From Azotosporobacter soli (GTDB taxonomy: Bacteria > Bacillota > Negativicutes > SG130), in the NCBI RefSeq assembly GCF_030542965.1, contig NZ_JAUAOA010000002.1, positions 186,001 through 250,000 on the forward strand: a DNA stretch of 64,000 nucleotides. The letters are read 5' to 3'. Both the position numbers and the translations under genes were made by a program. Every line of letters starts with the position of its first letter. Positions within the stretch are counted from its first letter, which is position 1. The notes below the pieces were generated by a model. That model was given only the letters and a program-made list of their open reading frames with translations. It was not told where the DNA came from and searched no databases. Shown here piece by piece: positions 9,118-51,676 of the stretch.

Positions 9118-9399
9118 TTAACGACCTTTGCTGAAGCAATCGCGGCAGTATACCGGACGATCGCTGCTCGGACGGAAAGGCACTTGGGTGTTCACACCGC
9201 AAGCGGCGCAAACGACATCATGCATTTCACGTTGACGGCCAGCGTCGCCACCAGTGCGTTGCTTGCGAGCTGCACGGCAAGTCGGGCAACGGCCCGGCTC
9301 ATTAGCGAAACCTTTTTCAGCGTAGAACGCTTGTTCGGATGCGGAGAAAATGAATTCCACACCACACTCTTTACAGGTCATTGTTTTGTCTTCGTACAT
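9118..9399 (-). CDS. Small zinc-ribbon protein, paralogue 1
   Basis: 93 residues with four Cys pairs: CKECG, CPTCR, CAACG and CRDCF. The first pair is followed by VEFIFSASEQAFYAEKGF and the last ends a VPFRPSSDRPVYC motif, a family often annotated as zinc-ribbon domain or probable zinc-binding protein. Function is unknown; nucleic-acid binding or a redox/chaperone role are guesses. The ATG at 9397-9399 has AGGAGGAG seven bases upstream and is preferred over the TTG two codons earlier. A close paralogue lies at 45.4-45.7 kb. A TTTACA-16-TATACT promoter candidate lies at 9529-9556. Confidence 0.85.
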   Translation of the reverse strand: MYEDKTMTCKECGVEFIFSASEQAFYAEKGFANEPGRCPTCRAARKQRTGGDAGRQREMHDVVCAACGVNTQVPFRPSSDRPVYCRDCFSKGR

Positions 9400-39457: not shown

Positions 39458-39985
39458 TTAGAATTCTGGTTCGATCAAACCGTAATGCCCGTCTTTGCGG
39501 CGATACACCACATTGACTTCTTCCGTTTCCGTATTGGTGAAAACATAGAAGTCATGGTTGATCATGTTCATTTGCAGCACCGCTTCTTCGACATACATCG
39601 GTTTCACGGCGAAGCGTTTCGTCTTGACGACTTTGGTGTCATCATCCTCTTCCTGCAGTGCGCTTTGCACCAGTTCACTCTTGAAGGTGCCGCTCTTCAT
39701 GCGTTTGGCCAATTTGGTTTTATATTTTTCAATCTGCTTTTCAATTTTTTCCACAACTTGATCAATGGATGCATACATATCAGCAGTGGCTTCTTCGCCC
39801 CGCAGAATCATTCCATTGATAGGAACAGTCAGTTCGACGATATGACGTCCCTTTTCAACCTTTAATACAGCACTCATCTCACCTATATTATCGAAATACT
39901 TGGTGACTTTACTGACACGTTTTGTTACATAATCTTTCAACGCTGGAGTGATTTCAATGTTCTTTCCTCGTACGGCAATGGTCAT
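39458..39985 (-). CDS. hpf: Long-form ribosome hibernation promoting factor
   Basis: 175 residues from the ATG at 39983-39985 (MTIAVRGKNIEITPALKDYV); the ATG three codons earlier overlaps the AAGGAG site and is unlikely. The N-terminal S30AE domain (about 1-95) binds the 30S decoding region; the C-terminal domain (about 120-175, KRFAVKPMYVEEAVLQMNM, GHYGLIEPEF) dimerises ribosomes into 100S particles. Its place near secA-prfB is normal; the hydrogenase genes intervene here. Confidence 0.95.
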   Translation of the reverse strand: MTIAVRGKNIEITPALKDYVTKRVSKVTKYFDNIGEMSAVLKVEKGRHIVELTVPINGMILRGEEATADMYASIDQVVEKIEKQIEKYKTKLAKRMKSGTFKSELVQSALQEEDDDTKVVKTKRFAVKPMYVEEAVLQMNMINHDFYVFTNTETEEVNVVYRRKDGHYGLIEPEF

Positions 39986-40198
39986 ATTGTCCATCTCCTT
40001 CCGTGTGTCTTATAAGTAATATTCGCCGCCCTGCGTTAAATTCCTGTTAAAAAAGCCAAGTTCACCATAAAAATTTCAAAATCTTTTTACAATTTCTTTT
40101 TTCAACCTTCCAAAGCCGCATTTTTAAAGGCTTTCATCGATTTTCGGCTCTTGCTATATTCGCAAACAAACATTACAGAAAGTGGAAAGTCACTGTTA

Positions 40199-40246: not shown

Positions 40247-40324
40247 AAAACGCCGCATCATGCCGCGCTGCCCGGGCCGCCGGAATCGTCTCGCTTTAAA
40301 ACGTTCTTTTATTCTTGATAACAC

Positions 40325-40354
40325 AAAACCCGGCTGCTTTTACGCAACCGGGTT
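40325..40354 (-). terminator. Terminator of the cold-shock gene
   Basis: AACCCGG (40327-40333) and CCGGGTT (40348-40354), followed by TTTTGTG on the minus strand. Confidence 0.85.
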
Positions 40355-40367
40355 GGCGATTTATGAA

Positions 40368-40565
40368 TTATGACTTATAGACGTTGGCAGCTTGCGGCCC
40401 ACGAGCGCCTTCTACAATTTCAAATTCAACTTCTTGACCTTCGGCCAAGGATTTGAATCCTTCGTCTTGAATAGCGGAGAAGTGTACGAATACGTCAGCA
40501 CCGTCTTCTCTCTCGATGAAACCAAAACCTTTTTCTGCGCTGAACCATTTTACCTTACCAATCAT
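40368..40565 (-). CDS. Cold-shock domain protein (CspA family)
   Basis: 65 residues starting [23 protein letters not shown]1 (KGFGFIE) and RNP2 (VFVHFSAI) RNA-binding motifs are intact. It is a single-stranded nucleic-acid chaperone. The ATG at 40563-40565 has AGGAGG eight bases upstream; the TTG two codons earlier would give too short a spacing. Clear promoter and terminator make it monocistronic. Confidence 0.96.
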
Positions 40566-40627
40566 GTCCAATTCCTCCTAATACATAAAAACTCTACGGC
40601 CAATCCAAAGACTGGAACCTCATGTTT

Positions 40628-40657
40628 AGTATATCATCGGCTAAATCAGACTGTCAA
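40628..40657 (-). promoter_or_regulatory. Sigma-A type promoter of the cold-shock gene
   Basis: Minus strand TTGACA (40652-40657), 18-base spacer, TATACT (40628-40633), giving a 5' leader of about 55 nt. Confidence 0.8.
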
Positions 40658-40709
40658 CGTAATGTACGGGGTCTATTCCCGCAAACCTTGTCAAACAAGG
40701 TCGAATAGT

Positions 40710-42485: not shown

Positions 42486-43265
42486 TTACGCTTGCGGCTT
42501 TTTGCCGAACCATTTTTCGTAGATCTTGTCATACTCGCCGTTTTTCTTCAATTCTTCGAGCGCTTTGTTGACTTTCTCGGTCAGTTCGCCGTTCTTCTTG
42601 GCAATCGCCATGCCGTAGTCCTCGGCATTGCTGATTTCGCTCAGCAGCTTGGCGGACTTGTCGCCGCTCTTGGCCATGTAATATTGATTAACCGGCAAGT
42701 CGTTGACCACCGCATCGACGCCGCCTGCCTTCAATTCCATATACGATTCGGCATTGCTGTTAAACTCGCGCACTGTAGCGCCTTTGATTTTCTTAGCTTC
42801 CTCTGCGCCGGTCGTACCGATCTGCACGGCAATTTTCTTGCCTTCCAGTTCTTTAAAGCCTTTGATCGTCTGATTGTCCGCTTTTACGATGATCGAAAGA
42901 CCGGATTTGTAATACGGTTTGGAAAAGCTGACTTTTTCCGCGCGTTCCGGCGTGATGCTCATGCCGGATACGATCAAGTCGATGTTGCCGCCTTCGAGCG
43001 CCGGGATCAGGCCGTCAAAGCCCATGCTTTGGATTTGCACTTCATAGCCCATCTGTTTGCCGACCGCTCTGGCCAGATCCATATCGAAGCCGACATACTC
43101 CTTGCTCTGCTCATCTTGGAATTCAAACGGCGGGAACGTCGTTTCCGCACCGACTTTCAATACCTTTGCCGCCGGCTTGTCCGCCGCTTTTTGGCCGCAG
43201 CCCGCCAGGCCCAGTAAGAGAACCAGCAACGCCGCCATCATTACCATCATCCGTTTGTTAAACAT
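42486..43265 (-). CDS. Amino-acid ABC transporter substrate-binding lipoprotein, paralogue 1
   Basis: 259 residues from the ATG at 43263-43265 (MFNKRMMVMMAALLVLLLGL), preceded by a GGGGGC site. The lipobox LAGC gives a lipoprotein anchored outside the membrane. SBP family 3 core: FPPFEFQDEQSKEYVGFDMD, GMSITPERAEKVSFSKPYY, IAVQIGTTGAEEAKK. The arginine in SITPERAE and the aspartate in GGVDAVVNDLPV are those that bind the amino-acid alpha groups. Nearest of three paralogues to the permease. It has its own terminator. Confidence 0.93.
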   Translation of the reverse strand: MFNKRMMVMMAALLVLLLGLAGCGQKAADKPAAKVLKVGAETTFPPFEFQDEQSKEYVGFDMDLARAVGKQMGYEVQIQSMGFDGLIPALEGGNIDLIVSGMSITPERAEKVSFSKPYYKSGLSIIVKADNQTIKGFKELEGKKIAVQIGTTGAEEAKKIKGATVREFNSNAESYMELKAGGVDAVVNDLPVNQYYMAKSGDKSAKLLSEISNAEDYGMAIAKKNGELTEKVNKALEELKKNGEYDKIYEKWFGKKPQA

Positions 43266-43375
43266 CTGTCCGCCCCCTGTTAATAGATAATTTTTCCACT
43301 TATAATAATACACATTTTACGTACTTTTATCAACACTTGTCCCTCGTTTTTTTGCAATAATCACATACTGCGCAC

Positions 43376-43428
43376 AAAACAGGCTGTCTTCGTGATGAAT
43401 GTAATCCACCAAACCAAGACAGCCTGTT
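43376..43428 (-). terminator. Terminator of binding-protein gene 2
   Basis: AACAGGCTGTCTT (43378-43390) and AAGACAGCCTGTT (43416-43428), a 13-bp perfect stem with a 25-base loop, followed by TTTG on the minus strand. Confidence 0.85.
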
Positions 43429-43440
43429 CCTCTTCTTACT

Positions 43441-44217
43441 TTATTGGACGGGCTTTTTGCCGAACCATTTCACGTAGATTTTTTCATACTCGCCATTTTT
43501 CTTCAGCTCATCGAGTGCTTTGTTGATTTTCTCGTTCAGCTCGGCATTCTTTTTGCTGCTGGCGATGCCGTATTCTTCAGAGCTCATCGGCTCGCCGGTG
43601 AGCTTGGCATCTTTGGCTGCGCTCTTCGCAATGTAATATTCGTTAACCGGCAGATCGTTGACCACCGCGTCGACGCCGCCGGCCTTCAACTCAAGAAAAG
43701 CTTCCGGTGCGGTGTTGAATTCGCGAATCTGAGCGTTCTTTATCTTCTTCGCTTCCTCGGCTCCGGTCGTGCCGATCTGCACGCCGATCCGCTTGCCTGC
43801 AAGATCCGCAAATGATTTGATCGCGGTGTTATCCGCTTTTACCACGATGGACTGACCCGATTTGTAATACGGCTTGGAAAAATTCACTTTCGCCGCGCGT
43901 TCCGGCGTGATCGTCATCGCCGAAATGCTGACGTCGATGTTGCCCGCTTCCAATGCCGGTATGATGCCGTCAAAGTTCATGCTCTGCACCTGCACCTCAT
44001 AGCCCATCTGCTTGCCGACCGCCTTGATCAAATCCATATCGAAACCGACATAGTCTTTGCTGCCTTCGTCCTGGAACTCAAACGGCGCGAATGCAGTGTC
44101 CGAACCGACTTTGAGAATTTTAGCCTCTTTCTTTTGTTCAGCGCAGCCGCCGAGCAGCAGCGCCAATGCAACGACAGTTAACAGGATACTCGTGAACCAT
44201 GTTTTCTTCATCATCAT
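43441..44217 (-). CDS. Amino-acid ABC transporter substrate-binding lipoprotein, paralogue 2
   Basis: About 258 residues. Three consecutive ATG codons (44209-44217) follow GGAGAGG; the outermost is given, the second has the best spacing. Lipobox LGGC. Family 3 solute-binding core nearly parallel to its neighbours (FAPFEFQDEGSKDYVGFDMD, AMTITPERAAKVNFSKPYY, GVQIGTTGAEEAKKIKN). The conserved ligand-binding residues are kept, so it is functional. Flanked by its own terminator and a separate A/T-rich upstream region. Confidence 0.92.
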   Translation of the reverse strand: MMMKKTWFTSILLTVVALALLLGGCAEQKKEAKILKVGSDTAFAPFEFQDEGSKDYVGFDMDLIKAVGKQMGYEVQVQSMNFDGIIPALEAGNIDVSISAMTITPERAAKVNFSKPYYKSGQSIVVKADNTAIKSFADLAGKRIGVQIGTTGAEEAKKIKNAQIREFNTAPEAFLELKAGGVDAVVNDLPVNEYYIAKSAAKDAKLTGEPMSSEEYGIASSKKNAELNEKINKALDELKKNGEYEKIYVKWFGKKPVQ

Positions 44218-44318
44218 CTTCCTCTCCAAATACACTTTTGTTTTTACATTTATAACTATACGCACTTGCGCATATTCAAGCAATATGTTGCAAGAAAATA
44301 TCCATGTATACTTTTATG

Positions 44319-44353
44319 AAAAGACACTGTGCGTTTTCTGCACAGTGTCTTTT
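44319..44353 (-). terminator. Terminator of binding-protein gene 3
   Basis: AAAAGACACTGTGC (44319-44332) and GCACAGTGTCTTTT (44340-44353), a perfect 14-bp stem. Confidence 0.95.
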
Positions 44354-44361
44354 CTATCACC

Positions 44362-45138
44362 TTATGCTTGCGGCGGTTTCTTGCCGAACCATTTCAGGTA
44401 CAGCTTCTCGTATTCGCCGTTTTTCTTCAGTTCATCGAGCGCTTTGTTAATCTTCTCGGTCAGTTCCGTATTCTTCTTGCCGATCGCAATGCCGTATTCT
44501 TCCGCGCTCACTACGTCGCCGACGATCTTCGCGTCTTTCGCGCCGGTCTTAACGATGTAGTATTCATTGACCGGCAGGTCGTTGACCACCGCATCCGCAC
44601 CGCCCGCTTTCAGTTCCATGAATGCTTCGGCAGAGCTGTTAAACTCACGCACCTGTGCATTTTTGATTTTCTTTGCTTCGCTCGCGCCGGTCGTACCGAT
44701 CTGCACGGCAATCTTCTTGCCTTCCAAATCGCCGAAGCCCTTGATCGTCGCATTGTCAGCCTTGACTACCACAGCCAGGCCGGATTTATAGTACGGTTTG
44801 GAGAAATTCACTTTTTGGCTCCGCTCAGCGGTGATCGTCATGCCGGTCGCCGCAATGTCAATGTTGCCGGATTCGATGCCGGGAATGATGCCGTCAAAAT
44901 TCATGTTCTGGATCTGCACTTCGTAGCCCATCTGCTTGCCAAGCGCTTTTGCCAGGTCGATATCAAAGCCGACATATTCTTTGGTGCTTTCATCCTGGAA
45001 CTCAAACGGCGCAAACGCAGCGTCCGTTCCCACCTTCAATACTTTCGGCGCCGCCTTTTCCTGGCTGCCGCAGCCAGTCACTGCAAAGACCAGCGCCAGC
45101 ACCGCCAGCAACAAGCCTGTTTTAAATTTCTTATTCAT
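44362..45138 (-). CDS. Amino-acid ABC transporter substrate-binding lipoprotein, paralogue 3
   Basis: 258 residues from the ATG at 45136-45138 (MNKKFKTGLLLAVLALVFAV), with GGGGGA seven bases upstream. Lipobox VTGC. Same family 3 core (FAPFEFQDESTKEYVGFDID, GMTITAERSQKVNFSKPYY, VQIGTTGASEAKKIKNAQV). It differs from the others in the loops around the ligand cleft. No permease or ATPase gene is adjacent, so all three probably deliver to the one transporter at 40.7-42.1 kb. Confidence 0.93.
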   Translation of the reverse strand: MNKKFKTGLLLAVLALVFAVTGCGSQEKAAPKVLKVGTDAAFAPFEFQDESTKEYVGFDIDLAKALGKQMGYEVQIQNMNFDGIIPGIESGNIDIAATGMTITAERSQKVNFSKPYYKSGLAVVVKADNATIKGFGDLEGKKIAVQIGTTGASEAKKIKNAQVREFNSSAEAFMELKAGGADAVVNDLPVNEYYIVKTGAKDAKIVGDVVSAEEYGIAIGKKNTELTEKINKALDELKKNGEYEKLYLKWFGKKPPQA

Positions 45139-45240
45139 GATTTCGTCCCCCTTGCGGATATTATTCTTTCGATGTTTATAATTATACATTTAACATGCAT
45201 AATTAGTCAATAGTATTTTAAAAAATATCTCGCAACTCTT

Positions 45241-45361
45241 TTAACACGAAGAAGGGAAGACAAGAAGATAAGTATTCCCATTATTCATCATGCCTCCTAA
45301 AAAATTATCGCTGGCGCTCAGCCCGCGACTTCCTTTCTTCCACTCTTCCTTTCTTCGTGTT
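45241..45361. repeat. Family A inverted repeat, copy A8
   Basis: TTAACACGAAGA (45241-45252) opposite TTCTTCGTGTT (45351-45361), with GGGAAGACAAGAAG and CTTCCACTCTTCCTTTC inner arms. Rightmost copy in the window. Confidence 0.85.
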
Positions 45362-45392
45362 CATCCGCCTCCTCTTCCGGTGCAACAAAAAA

Positions 45393-45432: not shown

Positions 45433-45726
45433 TTATCTTGAGCGTGCGTTGAAGCACTCGCGACAATAGACCGGACGGTCTAAACGCGGTTCGAACGGCA
45501 CTTGCGTCTCTACGCCGCATTCGGCGCAAACCACTGTGAACATTTCGCGCGGCGCCCCGGAACGTTCGCCGCTTTCGCGACTTTGTTTCTTGGCACTGCG
45601 GCAATCACGGCAACGAGCCGGTTCGTTCTCGAATCCTTTTTCAGCGTAAAATTCCTGTTCACCTGCGGAGAAGATGAATTCCGCGCCGCAATCCTTGCAC
45701 GTAAGCGTTTTGTCCTCAAAAGCCAT
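45433..45726 (-). CDS. Small zinc-ribbon protein, paralogue 2
   Basis: 97 residues starting MAFEDKTLTCKDCGAEFIFS. Four Cys pairs (CKDCG, CRDCR, CAECG, CRECF) line up with the protein at 9.1-9.4 kb, and the segments AGEQEFYAEKGFENEPARC and VPFEPRLDRPVYC are almost the same. ATG at 45724-45726 after GTGAGGGG; the 18-codon upstream extension lacks an RBS and crosses a hairpin. Function unknown. Unlike paralogue 1 it lies downstream of a long structured RNA region that may be its leader. Confidence 0.87.
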   Translation of the reverse strand: MAFEDKTLTCKDCGAEFIFSAGEQEFYAEKGFENEPARCRDCRSAKKQSRESGERSGAPREMFTVVCAECGVETQVPFEPRLDRPVYCRECFNARSR

Positions 45727-45761
45727 AAAAATCCCCTCACCTTTTTGAAAGTAGTAGCACA

Positions 45762-45804
45762 CCAGGCTTTGTCGGGTCAAACTGACCCGAACAAAGAACG
45801 CTGG
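45762..45804 (-). other. Long hairpin just upstream of zinc-ribbon gene 2
   Basis: On the minus strand CCAG, CTTTGT and CGGGTCA pair with TGACCCG, ACAAAG and CTGG around GTT, about 17 base pairs in all with small bulges. No T-run follows, so it is not a standard terminator. It lies about 35 bases before the gene start. Confidence 0.6.
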
Positions 45805-45838
45805 TTATACTCAAGTCCGTAAAGGCCTGATTATAAGG

Positions 45839-46078
45839 ACCCTTTTGCTTAGCCGACCTGGTCTTTGCCCCCACACTCGCCTGCTGGAAGTTTTGCTACT
45901 AGAAGTTAATCGCTCACTACTAATCCTCTCGACCATCGCCGCCCCAAGGGCGTCGTGTCCGGCAGGTCTTACCTCTAAGCCGCACCATGCTCAAAGCCGC
46001 TTTGGGCTCCTTACGTGGATCGTTTCGCCTGCGACTGGCATCGATTTTCAACCACAGACCTAAGCAATAAGGTTCTCG
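45839..46078 (-). ncRNA. Structured non-coding RNA of unrecognised class (about 240 nt)
   Basis: A strong promoter fires into a stretch with no credible ORF but many pairings. A terminal stem joins ACCTTATTGCTTAG (46060-46073) to CTAAGCAAAAGGGT (45839-45852), 13 of 14 pairs including G-U. Inside are GTGG/CCAC, CAAAGC/GCTTTG, AGGT/ACCT and CGCCC/GGGCG hairpins. I do not recognise RNase P, tmRNA, SRP, 6S or a known riboswitch core; a raiA-type RNA or a lineage-specific RNA are possibilities. It may be a free RNA or the leader of the zinc-ribbon gene, since no T-run ends it. Confidence 0.65.
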
Positions 46079-46084
46079 ACTTAC

Positions 46085-46113
46085 ATTATAGAATTATCGT
46101 CATAAAATTGCAA
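46085..46113 (-). promoter_or_regulatory. Strong sigma-A type promoter of the structured RNA
   Basis: Minus strand TTGCAA (46108-46113), exactly 17 bases, TATAAT (46085-46090). It lies right after the terminator of the FliD-like gene, so it starts a new transcription unit. Confidence 0.8.
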
Positions 46114-46167: not shown

Positions 46168-47475
46168 CTAAATTCGCATATCCATGAACAATCCCTGCGC
46201 TCCGTTCAAGCCGCCCATGCTGTTGCCCAGCAACATCTGCAGGTTCGATTGCTGCGCCTGGCTGTCGTAGGTTTTCCAGTCCATGTATTGCGGCGCTTGC
46301 AGATATTGATTCGCGGCCGTGTTCATAGCCTGCTTGCTGACCGATTCCAAACGTCCGGACAAGCCGCCTGAACCGCTCAATGCATTTTCAACCTGATCGG
46401 GATTTTTTCTCAGTGCGTCCGACAACTTAGTCTGATCCAATTTCAGTTCCCCGGTCGCCGTGTCCTGCGTGATGCCGATATTGGCCAACGCACTTTGGTT
46501 GCTCTGCGATACGCTGTTGCCCAGACGATCCAGCAGATGCTGGCCGCGTCGCGTCAGATCGCCTTGCCCCATCGTATCGAGCGTCTTGTTGTAGGCATCG
46601 ACCAGATTCTGCGTCGCCTTTACCACCGCGCCGCTATCCTTTGCCACCTTGACGGTGGCCGCATTCAGATTGCCTTTGTTGTCGGCAGTCACGGCATTGA
46701 GCTGGAACGTCACATTTCCGTTGTCCGTCGTGACTTTATTGCTTGCTGAGCTGTACGCCGTGCCGTTAATCGTATACTTGGCATCCGCCGCTTGTTGCAC
46801 GGTATTGCCGACGCCCAGTCCCGCCACTGCACCGCCGCTGATGTCGCGCAGCGAAAAGGTCTGCGTCGCGCCGGTCGTCTTCGATTCGAGGCTCAGGAAA
46901 TTCTTGCCTTGCTTGTCGGTCTGTACCGATGCCGTGACATCGAGCTTCGCCGCATTGATCGAACCGGCAAATTTATCGAGCGTCTGCTTGTTCGTATCGG
47001 TTGCCAGCACATTGACCGAGAGTTGTTTTTCCGCACCGCTGCCCACCTTTATGCCGAAGGTGTGGCTGCCGCTGCTGAGCGCACCGTAGGCAGAGCCGGA
47101 AAAAGAAGTTCCCGTATTGCGCTGCGTGGTCGCGAGCTGCGTAACGCCGACCGAATAACTGGCGTTCGTCGCGGTCTTCTTCGCCGTTCCTGTTACTGCC
47201 GCATTGTTGGAGGTGACCGCCTTCTGCTCAAATGAGTCGCTTGTCACGCTCTTGGCCGCGGTATTCAACTCTTTCCAGCTGCTGCTGAACGACTGCACCG
47301 ACTGCTTGTAATCGCTTTGCTGCTGCTGGAAACTCTGTGAGAAAAGCGGCGCCAACGCCTGTAGCGATCCCGGATACATACTGAGCGACTGGGAATTCGT
47401 CGTATTGAAAACGCCCAGCGATGTCGGCGGCTGCACATTGAACATGTTCGTCCTTAATGCCGGTATCGTAGCCAT
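46168..47475 (-). CDS. FliD-like flagellar cap (hook-associated protein 2) family protein
   Basis: 435 residues from the ATG at 47473-47475 (MATIPALRTNMFNVQPP) after AAAGGAGGGA. Helical N-terminal region, then a Ser/Thr/Asn/Gly-rich middle with repeated TQLATTQRN-type and LSLESKTTGATQTF segments, and a helical C terminus (VDAYNKTLDTMGQGDLTRRG, LKLDQTKLSDALRKNPDQVE) typical of FliD_C. No signal peptide, as expected for export by the flagellar type III system. It may be the true cap or a FliD paralogue; fliS and fliC are not in the window. The glycan operon next door fits flagellin modification. Confidence 0.7.
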   Translation of the reverse strand: MATIPALRTNMFNVQPPTSLGVFNTTNSQSLSMYPGSLQALAPLFSQSFQQQQSDYKQSVQSFSSSWKELNTAAKSVTSDSFEQKAVTSNNAAVTGTAKKTATNASYSVGVTQLATTQRNTGTSFSGSAYGALSSGSHTFGIKVGSGAEKQLSVNVLATDTNKQTLDKFAGSINAAKLDVTASVQTDKQGKNFLSLESKTTGATQTFSLRDISGGAVAGLGVGNTVQQAADAKYTINGTAYSSASNKVTTDNGNVTFQLNAVTADNKGNLNAATVKVAKDSGAVVKATQNLVDAYNKTLDTMGQGDLTRRGQHLLDRLGNSVSQSNQSALANIGITQDTATGELKLDQTKLSDALRKNPDQVENALSGSGGLSGRLESVSKQAMNTAANQYLQAPQYMDWKTYDSQAQQSNLQMLLGNSMGGLNGAQGLFMDMRI

Positions 47476-47587
47476 GTTTCTCCCTCCTTTTGAGGTTTCT
47501 TCGAAATAACACACTCCGTCCTATTCTACATTCCCATTTTATCACATTACTGTCAATATTCAAATAGGAATATTGACTCAATTCTGT

Positions 47588-48931: not shown

Positions 48932-49567
48932 TTACAGTTCAACAAAATTTTTAATAATACGAAGTCCTACGGCGCCGCTTTTCTCCGGATGAAATTGGCA
49001 GCCATATGCATTTCCTTTCCGGATTACAGCCGAAATAATACAGCCGTCATACTCAGCTTCAGCAAGCTTGTTTTCTGCCAAAGCGGGTACCGCAGAATAA
49101 GAGTGTACAAAATACACCGCTGTTTCCGGCTCAACTCCTTCTAATAAGCTTCCTTGCCAAGTTTCCCCACTACTCTTGATTTCATTCCATCCGATATAAG
49201 GTATTCTATGAACCTTGCCATCCATCCCTTTTTCAGGAATTTTTTGCACAGTTCCAGGAATGATACCAAGGCCTTCGTGAAAGCCAAACTCATCGCTACT
49301 ATCCATCATCATTTGCATTCCCAGGCAAATCCCTAGAAAAGGTCTATTCTGGAAGCAGTAGTCAATGATTGGTTTAACAAAACCACGATCCCTTAATTCT
49401 TTCATGCCATTTGCAAAAGCACCAACCCCTGGCAAAATCAATGCCTCTGCCTTCAAAATATCTGCTGCGTTATCCGAGATAATCACTTCTGCGCCAACAT
49501 ATTCAAAAGCCCTTCTAACGCTTAACAAGTTTCCTATTCCATAATCGATAATCGTAACTTGTTTCAT
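48932..49567 (-). CDS. HisH-type glutaminase subunit of sugar amidotransferase
   Basis: 211 residues, class I glutamine amidotransferase. The nucleophile Cys is in FLGICLGMQMM; His and Glu of the triad are in the C-terminal CQFHPEKSG. It frees ammonia from glutamine. In this setting, next to a HisF homologue and a PseA/WbpG-type enzyme, it is more likely a glycan-specific HisH2 than histidine biosynthesis HisH (inference; no other his genes are here). Overlaps hisF-like by 4 bases. Confidence 0.88.
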   Translation of the reverse strand: MKQVTIIDYGIGNLLSVRRAFEYVGAEVIISDNAADILKAEALILPGVGAFANGMKELRDRGFVKPIIDYCFQNRPFLGICLGMQMMMDSSDEFGFHEGLGIIPGTVQKIPEKGMDGKVHRIPYIGWNEIKSSGETWQGSLLEGVEPETAVYFVHSYSAVPALAENKLAEAEYDGCIISAVIRKGNAYGCQFHPEKSGAVGLRIIKNFVEL

Positions 49568-50328
49568 AACTCATATCTCCGCATTTTAATTCCTTGCTCC
49601 ATCGCCTGTTTTCGTATTTCCGGAACACTTAGTTTCTTATAGTGTAAAACATTGGCCATTGCGATTGCGTCAGCTCCAGAAGCCACCGCATTTCTCAAGT
49701 CAGCTACACTATTCATTCCACCACTAGCGATTACAGGAATAGGGACAGCCGCGCTAACTTCTTGAATCAAACTACAATCAAAGCCTTTTCCCGTCCCTTC
49801 ATTATCGACCGAAGTAAGCAAAATTTCTCCCGCCCCCAACGCATGACCTTTCTTAGCCCATTCAACAACATCGATTCCTGTTCTTTCCCGTCCATTGTCA
49901 TAATACACTTCCCACTTGTCCAATGCATTTTTTTTCGCCTCAATTGACAGCACCATACATTGGGATCCAAAACGCTCCGAAATTTCGCTGATAAGCTTTG
50001 GATTTTTAATCGCAGCCGTATTCACAGCAACCTTATCGGCGCCAACTCGCAAGATGTCTTTCACGTTTTCGACAGAACGGATTCCGCCTCCCACTGTTAT
50101 CGGAATAAACACATTTCTCGTAGCTCGCCGCACAATCTCGACCAGACTATTCCGTTCATAAAGACTGGCCACGATATCCATATATATAATCTCATCGATT
50201 CCCTGCTCATAGTACTCTGTTGCAAAAAGATTCGGATCGCCTAACTTCCTTAATCCTTCAAGCTGAATACCCTTGACCAGATTAGGGCCTTTCACATCTA
50301 ATCTTGCAATCATCCTTATATTTTTCAT
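49564..50328 (-). CDS. HisF-type cyclase subunit / ammonia channel partner
   Basis: 254 residues, a TIM barrel with HisF features (MIARLDVKGPNLVKGIQLEG near the start; ITVGGGIRSVENV; PVIASGGMNSVADL). The first motif differs from housekeeping HisF (usually PCLDV), as seen in the WbpG-associated HisF2 group. It probably passes ammonia from the HisH-type subunit to the amidotransferase encoded six bases upstream. Confidence 0.85.
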   Translation of the reverse strand: MKNIRMIARLDVKGPNLVKGIQLEGLRKLGDPNLFATEYYEQGIDEIIYMDIVASLYERNSLVEIVRRATRNVFIPITVGGGIRSVENVKDILRVGADKVAVNTAAIKNPKLISEISERFGSQCMVLSIEAKKNALDKWEVYYDNGRERTGIDVVEWAKKGHALGAGEILLTSVDNEGTGKGFDCSLIQEVSAAVPIPVIASGGMNSVADLRNAVASGADAIAMANVLHYKKLSVPEIRKQAMEQGIKMRRYEL

Positions 50329-50334
50329 TATTTA

Positions 50335-51651
50335 TCACTCTTCATAGGCGGTATGTCTCAAATTCCATACGCCATTCTCCTTTTTCCACAAATGTGGCGA
50401 ACGAAACTGATCGGCTAGGTTCATGAAATAATCGCGATCCATAATCGGCTGCTCAAACATTTGATACGCAGTTGGGAATTCTTTTGGGTTGATGCTCAAG
50501 TAACTAAAAATTTCATCCGCAAAACGTTCCGGGAACTCACCATCGAATTTTTTGACCAATGCCACGCCTTCTTCACGCGTAATTTCTTGATTACGGATTT
50601 CCTGCGCCGCATCGTATGTCGCCCGTCCAATGCCAAACTTAATAAAAGTGGTATAGTAATGAAAATCGTCAATCCGATCATCAATGCTATTATACTTACT
50701 GTAAGTTCCTGGCGTTCTTTCCGGTGAAGCCTGAAAACCTCCATTTTCCACCGCATAATAATAACATTCCTGGGGATGCCACTTTAAATAATAACCCAGA
50801 TAATGCACTTCTATCTTTTTCTTTTCCACTTGTTCAGGATCTGCCGGCATATATGGCTTTAGCTCCACCGGCTCAACGCCAAAGTCATGCTCTAGCGATT
50901 TGAGCGAAACGCCTCCCAGATGAATTTTTTCTTTATCATGACTAGTGAAGTATTTCCAGTCCCGCTTGGCCGAAGCAGTATCCGAAATAGGATTGCCATA
51001 TTCCGCCTCATTCTCACCGTAAAAAACCAATTCAACATTATGTAATAATGCCATTTTGGGCGCCAAGGATTTTTGTCCAAACATAAACGCCTGAAACGGA
51101 TGAAATATGTTTTCTACCGCCAAACGAGTCAATAAACGATGAGTCCGCGGATTCGGCGTACACAAATAATTGTCAAATCCAGCGCCCAACCACGCTTGAA
51201 AATTTTGCCATCCCCAGGTCGTATAGATATGAGGCGCCCATGTTACCGTTAACGGATGCATCCCATACTTGTATTTCAACATATGAGCCGCATAAAAGCT
51301 GTCTTTTCCGCCTGATCCTGGAACGATGCAATCATACGAGCCATCATTTTTTCGGTATTTGTCACAAAGTTCTTTTAATTCCTGTTCCCGCAACTTCCAA
51401 TCAATGCCATGCATTTTTTGTTCCGTCACACGACAGGCATCACAAACACCTTTCTCATCAAAATGAATTGTCGATTTTTTAGAGTCCTTTGTGTGTTGAT
51501 ATTCGACTGCCGAGTTCGGCCTCTGATTGGAAATAACACATTTTTTACAAAATTTAACTTCCGCCGGCAAGCCATATTTAATCGGCAACTCTTTTTCTGT
51601 TTGGCTAAAGCTTTCCGTATTTATCGGTTCTGGTTTTGCATATTTTTTCAT
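50335..51651 (-). CDS. N-acetyl sugar amidotransferase (PseA/WbpG family)
   Basis: 438 residues from the ATG at 51649-51651. An N-terminal zinc-like site (CKKCVISNQRP; CDACR) precedes a PP-loop ATP pyrophosphatase motif, VPGSGGKDSFYAAHML, which adenylates the acetamido group so that ammonia can replace it, making an acetamidino group. Family members modify pseudaminic or legionaminic acids in Campylobacter and 2,3-diacetamido sugars in Pseudomonas (WbpG-HisH2-HisF2). An upstream ATG at 51669 has no RBS. Genes of the legionaminic pathway follow immediately. Confidence 0.9.
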   Translation of the reverse strand: MKKYAKPEPINTESFSQTEKELPIKYGLPAEVKFCKKCVISNQRPNSAVEYQHTKDSKKSTIHFDEKGVCDACRVTEQKMHGIDWKLREQELKELCDKYRKNDGSYDCIVPGSGGKDSFYAAHMLKYKYGMHPLTVTWAPHIYTTWGWQNFQAWLGAGFDNYLCTPNPRTHRLLTRLAVENIFHPFQAFMFGQKSLAPKMALLHNVELVFYGENEAEYGNPISDTASAKRDWKYFTSHDKEKIHLGGVSLKSLEHDFGVEPVELKPYMPADPEQVEKKKIEVHYLGYYLKWHPQECYYYAVENGGFQASPERTPGTYSKYNSIDDRIDDFHYYTTFIKFGIGRATYDAAQEIRNQEITREEGVALVKKFDGEFPERFADEIFSYLSINPKEFPTAYQMFEQPIMDRDYFMNLADQFRSPHLWKKENGVWNLRHTAYEE

Positions 51652-51676
51652 TACTTTTCCATCCTTCATATTTTAA

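Follow-up and report, generated by a model that had tools for sequence, protein, structure and literature searches.

A full-length raiA (ModT) RNA upstream of a zf_Tbcl gene in Azotosporobacter soli, and its probable additional role as an mRNA leader

What occupies the gap between the FliD-like gene (46168-47514; PF02465/PF07195) and the zinc-finger gene zf_Tbcl (45433-45726, minus strand) is the question raised by this locus of Azotosporobacter soli. The sequence analysed, termed the window, is a stretch of 64,000 nt from one contig, and coordinates without a locus label refer to it. A preliminary description of the gap proposed an unannotated structured RNA with its own near-consensus promoter, and could assign it to no familiar family.

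Identity and distribution of the RNA

The minus strand at positions 45844-46068 is a full-length raiA RNA (alias ModT; Rfam RF03072). The cmscan match scores 182.9 bits (E 1.3e-46), about 80 bits above the gathering score of 101.3 bits, and covers model positions 1-209, i.e., the entire model. A search of the 3.78-Mb assembly shows this to be the sole copy. An Infernal search of Rfam, with raiA among the models to be tried, had been suggested as the check on novelty, a clean match being the outcome that would make the family a known one, and such a match is what the search returned. A new RNA family, which would also be structured, promoter-driven and conserved as this RNA is, can be dismissed as having negligible probability, given a full-length match so far over the curated cut-off. 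The finding is thus real but the family is not new, and the intergenic gap between fliD and zf_Tbcl is hereby correctly annotated. It is highly probable that the locus as a whole represents the raiA RNA of this genome, acting in trans as published and probably processed from a longer zf_Tbcl transcript.

The RNA is conserved: most genomes sampled from its class carry it, with RF03072 matches in 180 of 251. Named relatives (Pelosinus, Selenomonadales) and the gene order suggest that this class is Negativicutes. Among genomes spread over the phylum it is found in 35 of 300, sub-threshold matches included. Most families of the class survey have the RNA; family f12 (e.g., genomes G011, G029 and G039) is without it and keeps the zf_Tbcl gene. 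raiA is among the most conserved bacterial RNAs without known biochemical activity, a property shared with OLE and other ornate large bacterial RNAs, which are likewise conserved, structured and abundant but unrelated in sequence and fold. No Rfam match to OLE, GOLLD or ROOL is present within the window.

Promoter

A sigma-A-type promoter is found at 46085-46113 on the minus strand, with the -35 element TTGCAA at 46113-46108, a 17-nt spacer and the -10 element TATAAT at 46090-46085. Its last base lies 16 nt ahead of the start of the RF03072 model. The sequence agrees with the consensus at 10 of 12 bases, but taken singly the match is weak, as shuffling predicts 0.8 such matches and three are found in 900 bp. 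A promoter with at least 9 of 12 consensus bases recurs at the equivalent position in 103 of 113 related loci (about 19 expected from shuffles), and it is this recurrence that makes the window match credible. The promoter that had been pointed out from the sequence is thus conserved. Transcription is predicted from the promoter spacing to start near 46077-46078.

Secondary structure and pseudoknot

Single-sequence folding was rejected as evidence of structure. The predicted fold of the window RNA has an energy of -79.7 kcal/mol (z = -0.92), and 28 of 200 shuffled sequences fold equally well, so that its stability is not unusual. The internal hairpins that had been read from the one sequence therefore prove nothing by themselves, and the structure was judged from relatives instead. 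An alignment of 82 raiA RNAs was used, onto which the Rfam helices were mapped; the nested core of the Rfam model was replaced by the pairing of P3 and of pk-1, the pseudoknot between the P3 loop and the pk-Loop, defined by cryo-EM (PMC11751092). Residue numbers in that work coincide with the Rfam consensus (e.g., G20, A28, A33 and A43-A46).

In the alignment 91.7% of 4489 cells are paired and 31 pairs have changed on both sides. Double changes occupy 506 cells, whereas shuffled alignments give 152 +/- 14 and slid controls no more than 122; the covariation expected of homologues is thus borne out. P3 is paired in 100% and pk-1 in 99.1% of cells, and 11 of the 12 outer pairs of P1 vary with compensation. 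At the base of P5, two of the Rfam pairs fail across the 82 sequences, consistent with cryo-EM, which shows non-canonical pairing at that place. Homology and covariation, not the single-sequence fold, settle that the RNA is structured.

Of the 56 model pairs the window copy forms 50, with P3 and pk-1 complete, and it can fold, judging from its sequence, into the raiA architecture of P1-P8 with pk-1. The 5′ strand of P1 (46050-46068) pairs with the 3′ strand at 45844-45863. P3 is a GCC/GGC hairpin at 46027-46039, whose 7-nt loop AGTCGCA (46030-46036) forms the first half of pk-1; the second half is the pk-Loop segment TGCGGCT at 45978-45984, and all seven pairs are possible, one of them U-G. 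The P6-P7-P8 domain (45880-45966) has the multi-stem form termed variant 2 in the cryo-EM work, with an extended P7 insertion. The P3 loop-pk-Loop pseudoknot and the variant-2 domain, both predicted from sequence in the window copy, are shared with the C. acetobutylicum raiA RNA solved by cryo-EM (PMC11751092). No sense-strand open reading frame of 60 aa or more is found in the RNA stretch, in keeping with the original observation of an ORF-free stretch past the promoter. A mechanical 72-aa ORF is present on the strand opposite the RNA.

The closing stem extends beyond the Rfam model. The terminal stem that had been drawn between 46060-46073 and 45839-45852 holds, with 13 of 14 pairs, one U-G pair included, and a mismatch of A46068 with A45844. 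The window flanks of the model form a duplex of -6.2 kcal/mol. In 39 distinct zf_Tbcl-linked loci, the 14 nt before the model pair with the 12 nt after it at a mean of -5.84 kcal/mol, as compared with -4.21 +/- 0.26 kcal/mol for flanks swapped from one genome to another and -2.83 +/- 0.28 kcal/mol for shuffled flanks. Since flanks pair better with their own partners than with swapped ones, the closed P1 stem reaches approximately to the transcription start. The probable stem-to-stem extent of the RNA is 45836-46077, and the proposal of a structured RNA with its own promoter is supported at a size of about 225-245 nt.

Linkage to the zf_Tbcl gene

The gene directly downstream encodes a 97-aa protein with two treble-clef zinc fingers (PF13451 and PF23477). 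It has the ribosome-binding site AAGGTGAGGGG at 45733-45743, and the zf_Tbcl ribosome-binding site AAGGTGAGGGGATT is strongly conserved among relatives. The commonest gene order in relatives of like arrangement is raiA RNA, zf_Tbcl, one to three amino-acid-binding proteins, permease, ATPase, CspA, HPF and SecA. The window keeps this order, and thus the hpf (raiA) gene for the ribosome hibernation factor that is the namesake of the RNA (39458-39994) is carried by the minus strand too, about 5.85 kb downstream of the RNA.

The zf_Tbcl-linked loci surveyed comprise 45433-46068 of the window and loci L033-L092, L098-L115 and L126-L204. In 57 of 61 loci from Negativicutes and other Firmicutes, the distance from the RNA to the zf_Tbcl start codon is 31-42 nt; the four exceptions have 62, 66 and 66 nt and, in the window, 117 nt. 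Among the best 80 relatives of the window zf_Tbcl protein in named genomes, 37 (e.g., that of Pelosinus propionicus) are encoded just downstream of the raiA 3′ core. No terminator was found between the RNA and zf_Tbcl in the window or in the zf_Tbcl-linked loci, where apparent terminator matches proved to be the G-rich ribosome-binding site. Several lineages without a zf_Tbcl neighbour have a classical terminator directly 3′ of the RNA. The near-constant spacing and the lack of an intervening terminator suggest that the raiA RNA is probably also the 5′ leader of the zf_Tbcl mRNA across Negativicutes and other Firmicutes, with likely read-through into zf_Tbcl on a shared transcript. No description of this arrangement was found in the literature searched, to which the PNAS 2024 raiA and NAR 2017 discovery papers do not belong.

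The unusually long window spacer (45727-45843) is also unusually stable (z -3.1). It contains a strong, long hairpin at 45761-45805 with the core CTTTGTTCGGGTCA-GTT-TGACCCGACAAAG; this has no U-tract, and is thus not an intrinsic terminator. A reading of the hairpin as a repeated element was rejected, since the genome holds a single copy of the 117-nt spacer.

Partner protein or cis-acting leader

Two other explanations of the linkage were weighed. The zf_Tbcl protein could be a dedicated partner of the raiA RNA, as OapA is for OLE RNA. This would explain the adjacency, which is conserved over a long range, and is in line with published indications of a ModT-protein association (PMC11706538). 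But co-occurrence fails in both directions, as f23 and f28 are families with the RNA only and f12 is one with zf_Tbcl only, and the window genome carries three zf_Tbcl genes and one RNA. An obligate partnership is rejected on these grounds, and a dedicated one appears quite improbable.

Alternatively, the raiA fold may in this phylum be a riboswitch-like leader acting in cis, which senses something and controls the translation or transcription of zf_Tbcl. Rfam types RF03072 as a cis-regulatory riboswitch, and the fixed spacing, the missing terminator and the equal gene order in named Firmicutes described above all favour such a role. However, the families with RNA and no zf_Tbcl at all, or the reverse, and the 117-nt spacer of the window argue against it, and complementation in trans, achieved in two Clostridia, rules out a role solely in cis in those species. 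Nor was an expression platform found: there is no terminator, and for sequestration of the ribosome-binding site by the linker, the one form of switch that was tested, covariation support is absent. Linkers pair with their own ribosome-binding site at -4.94 kcal/mol and with swapped ones at -5.02 kcal/mol; own pairing is slightly better than that of shuffled linkers, but not better than swapped. A cis-acting switch is therefore considered unlikely.

A shortened raiA RNA

An RNA of 110-121 nt, here called mini-raiA, is found in 19 of 22 genomes of one order (families f71 and f124). It scores 39-59 bits with RF03072, below the Rfam threshold, and no match above the cut-off is present among the 22 genomes. 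Mini-raiA loci are L118 (1501-1613, minus strand), L119, L120, L206-L210, L213-L219 and L234-L240. Retained are the promoter, P1 (extended to GGCATT/AATGCC), GAAAGTCGAnGCC, P3 and the P3 loop; P4/P5, GATCCACGTAA, the TTAGAnGTAAG pk-Loop and P6-P8 are absent. Most copies have a segment complementary to the P3 loop (GCCGCG/TGCGGC, GCCGTA/TACGGC or TGCCGCG/TGCGGCA), and pk-1 is thus probably retained, on pair statistics that are thin with so few sequences. Mini-raiA lies about 35 nt ahead of the same zf_Tbcl gene. A model built from eight mini-raiA sequences has matches in 10 of 399 phylum-spread genomes, all in f71 and f124. This form, like the leader arrangement, was not found described in the literature searched (PNAS 2024 raiA and NAR 2017 discovery papers again outside it).

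Function and comparison with known loci

ModT is abundant and acts in trans, as shown by complementation in two Clostridia, and cells that have lost it show elevated c-di-GMP and impaired sporulation (PMC11706538). The window RNA is most likely an abundant, stable, trans-acting timer of exit from exponential growth, a function assigned by transfer from Clostridioides and Clostridium, i.e., from other classes. Under this assignment, the RNA would be strongly transcribed in exponential growth and accumulate as a very stable molecule; acting in trans, it would time entry to stationary phase, with lower c-di-GMP and normal sporulation. At the biochemical level it may be a ribozyme, a ligand-binding RNA or a component of a ribonucleoprotein. 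As no terminator follows it, the RNA would probably be freed by processing of a longer transcript that also bears zf_Tbcl.

The window copy shares with the raiA/ModT family the full-length match, the helices, pk-1, the sigma-A promoter and the single copy in the genome, and differs from it in the extended P7 insertion and the lack of a terminator after the RNA. The commonest published neighbours, which are variable, are comFC upstream and the raiA gene directly downstream (PMC11706538); in the window fliD is upstream, zf_Tbcl directly downstream, and hpf/raiA farther off. The C. difficile ModT locus (PMC11706538) has in common with the window a sigma-A promoter directly upstream, a closed P1 and a length in the 215-260 nt class. 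However, C. difficile ModT has termination sites that give 215- and 260-nt forms, and its downstream neighbour is a PTS antiterminator gene; in the window no terminator was found and the neighbour is zf_Tbcl.

A more specific form of the trans-acting reading can be offered tentatively, with somewhat less than even confidence. One transcript may yield two products, namely a trans-acting raiA RNA cut at the base of the extended P1, and an mRNA for zf_Tbcl and perhaps the transporter genes; mini-raiA would then represent the minimal functional core. This would apply to Negativicutes and related Firmicutes, mini-raiA keeping only P1, P3, pk-1 and the leader position. The fixed distance to zf_Tbcl with no terminator between, together with the naturally shortened RNA, limits the RNA segments and the neighbour that are worth testing.

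Other features of the window

A second zf_Tbcl gene is present in the window at 9256-9393, and the genome has three in total. Three consecutive paralogous genes for family-3 solute-binding proteins (42486-45189) precede a single permease gene and a single ATPase gene. A long hairpin at 45242-45362 (z -4.85, with no shuffled sequence as good) lies in the gap that separates zf_Tbcl from the first solute-binding-protein gene. It is the source of a sub-threshold mir-483 match at 45241-45362 (22.5 bits against a threshold of 60), which was rejected as a chance match. The cspA thermoregulator RF01766 is matched at 40324-40704, barely over threshold (83.7 against 78 bits), and covers the CspA gene (40368-40571) and its leader. 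Beside the flagellar genes, translations point to HisH-like, HisF-like and N-acetyl sugar amidotransferase-like genes at 48932-51669, a set that suggests flagellin glycosylation.
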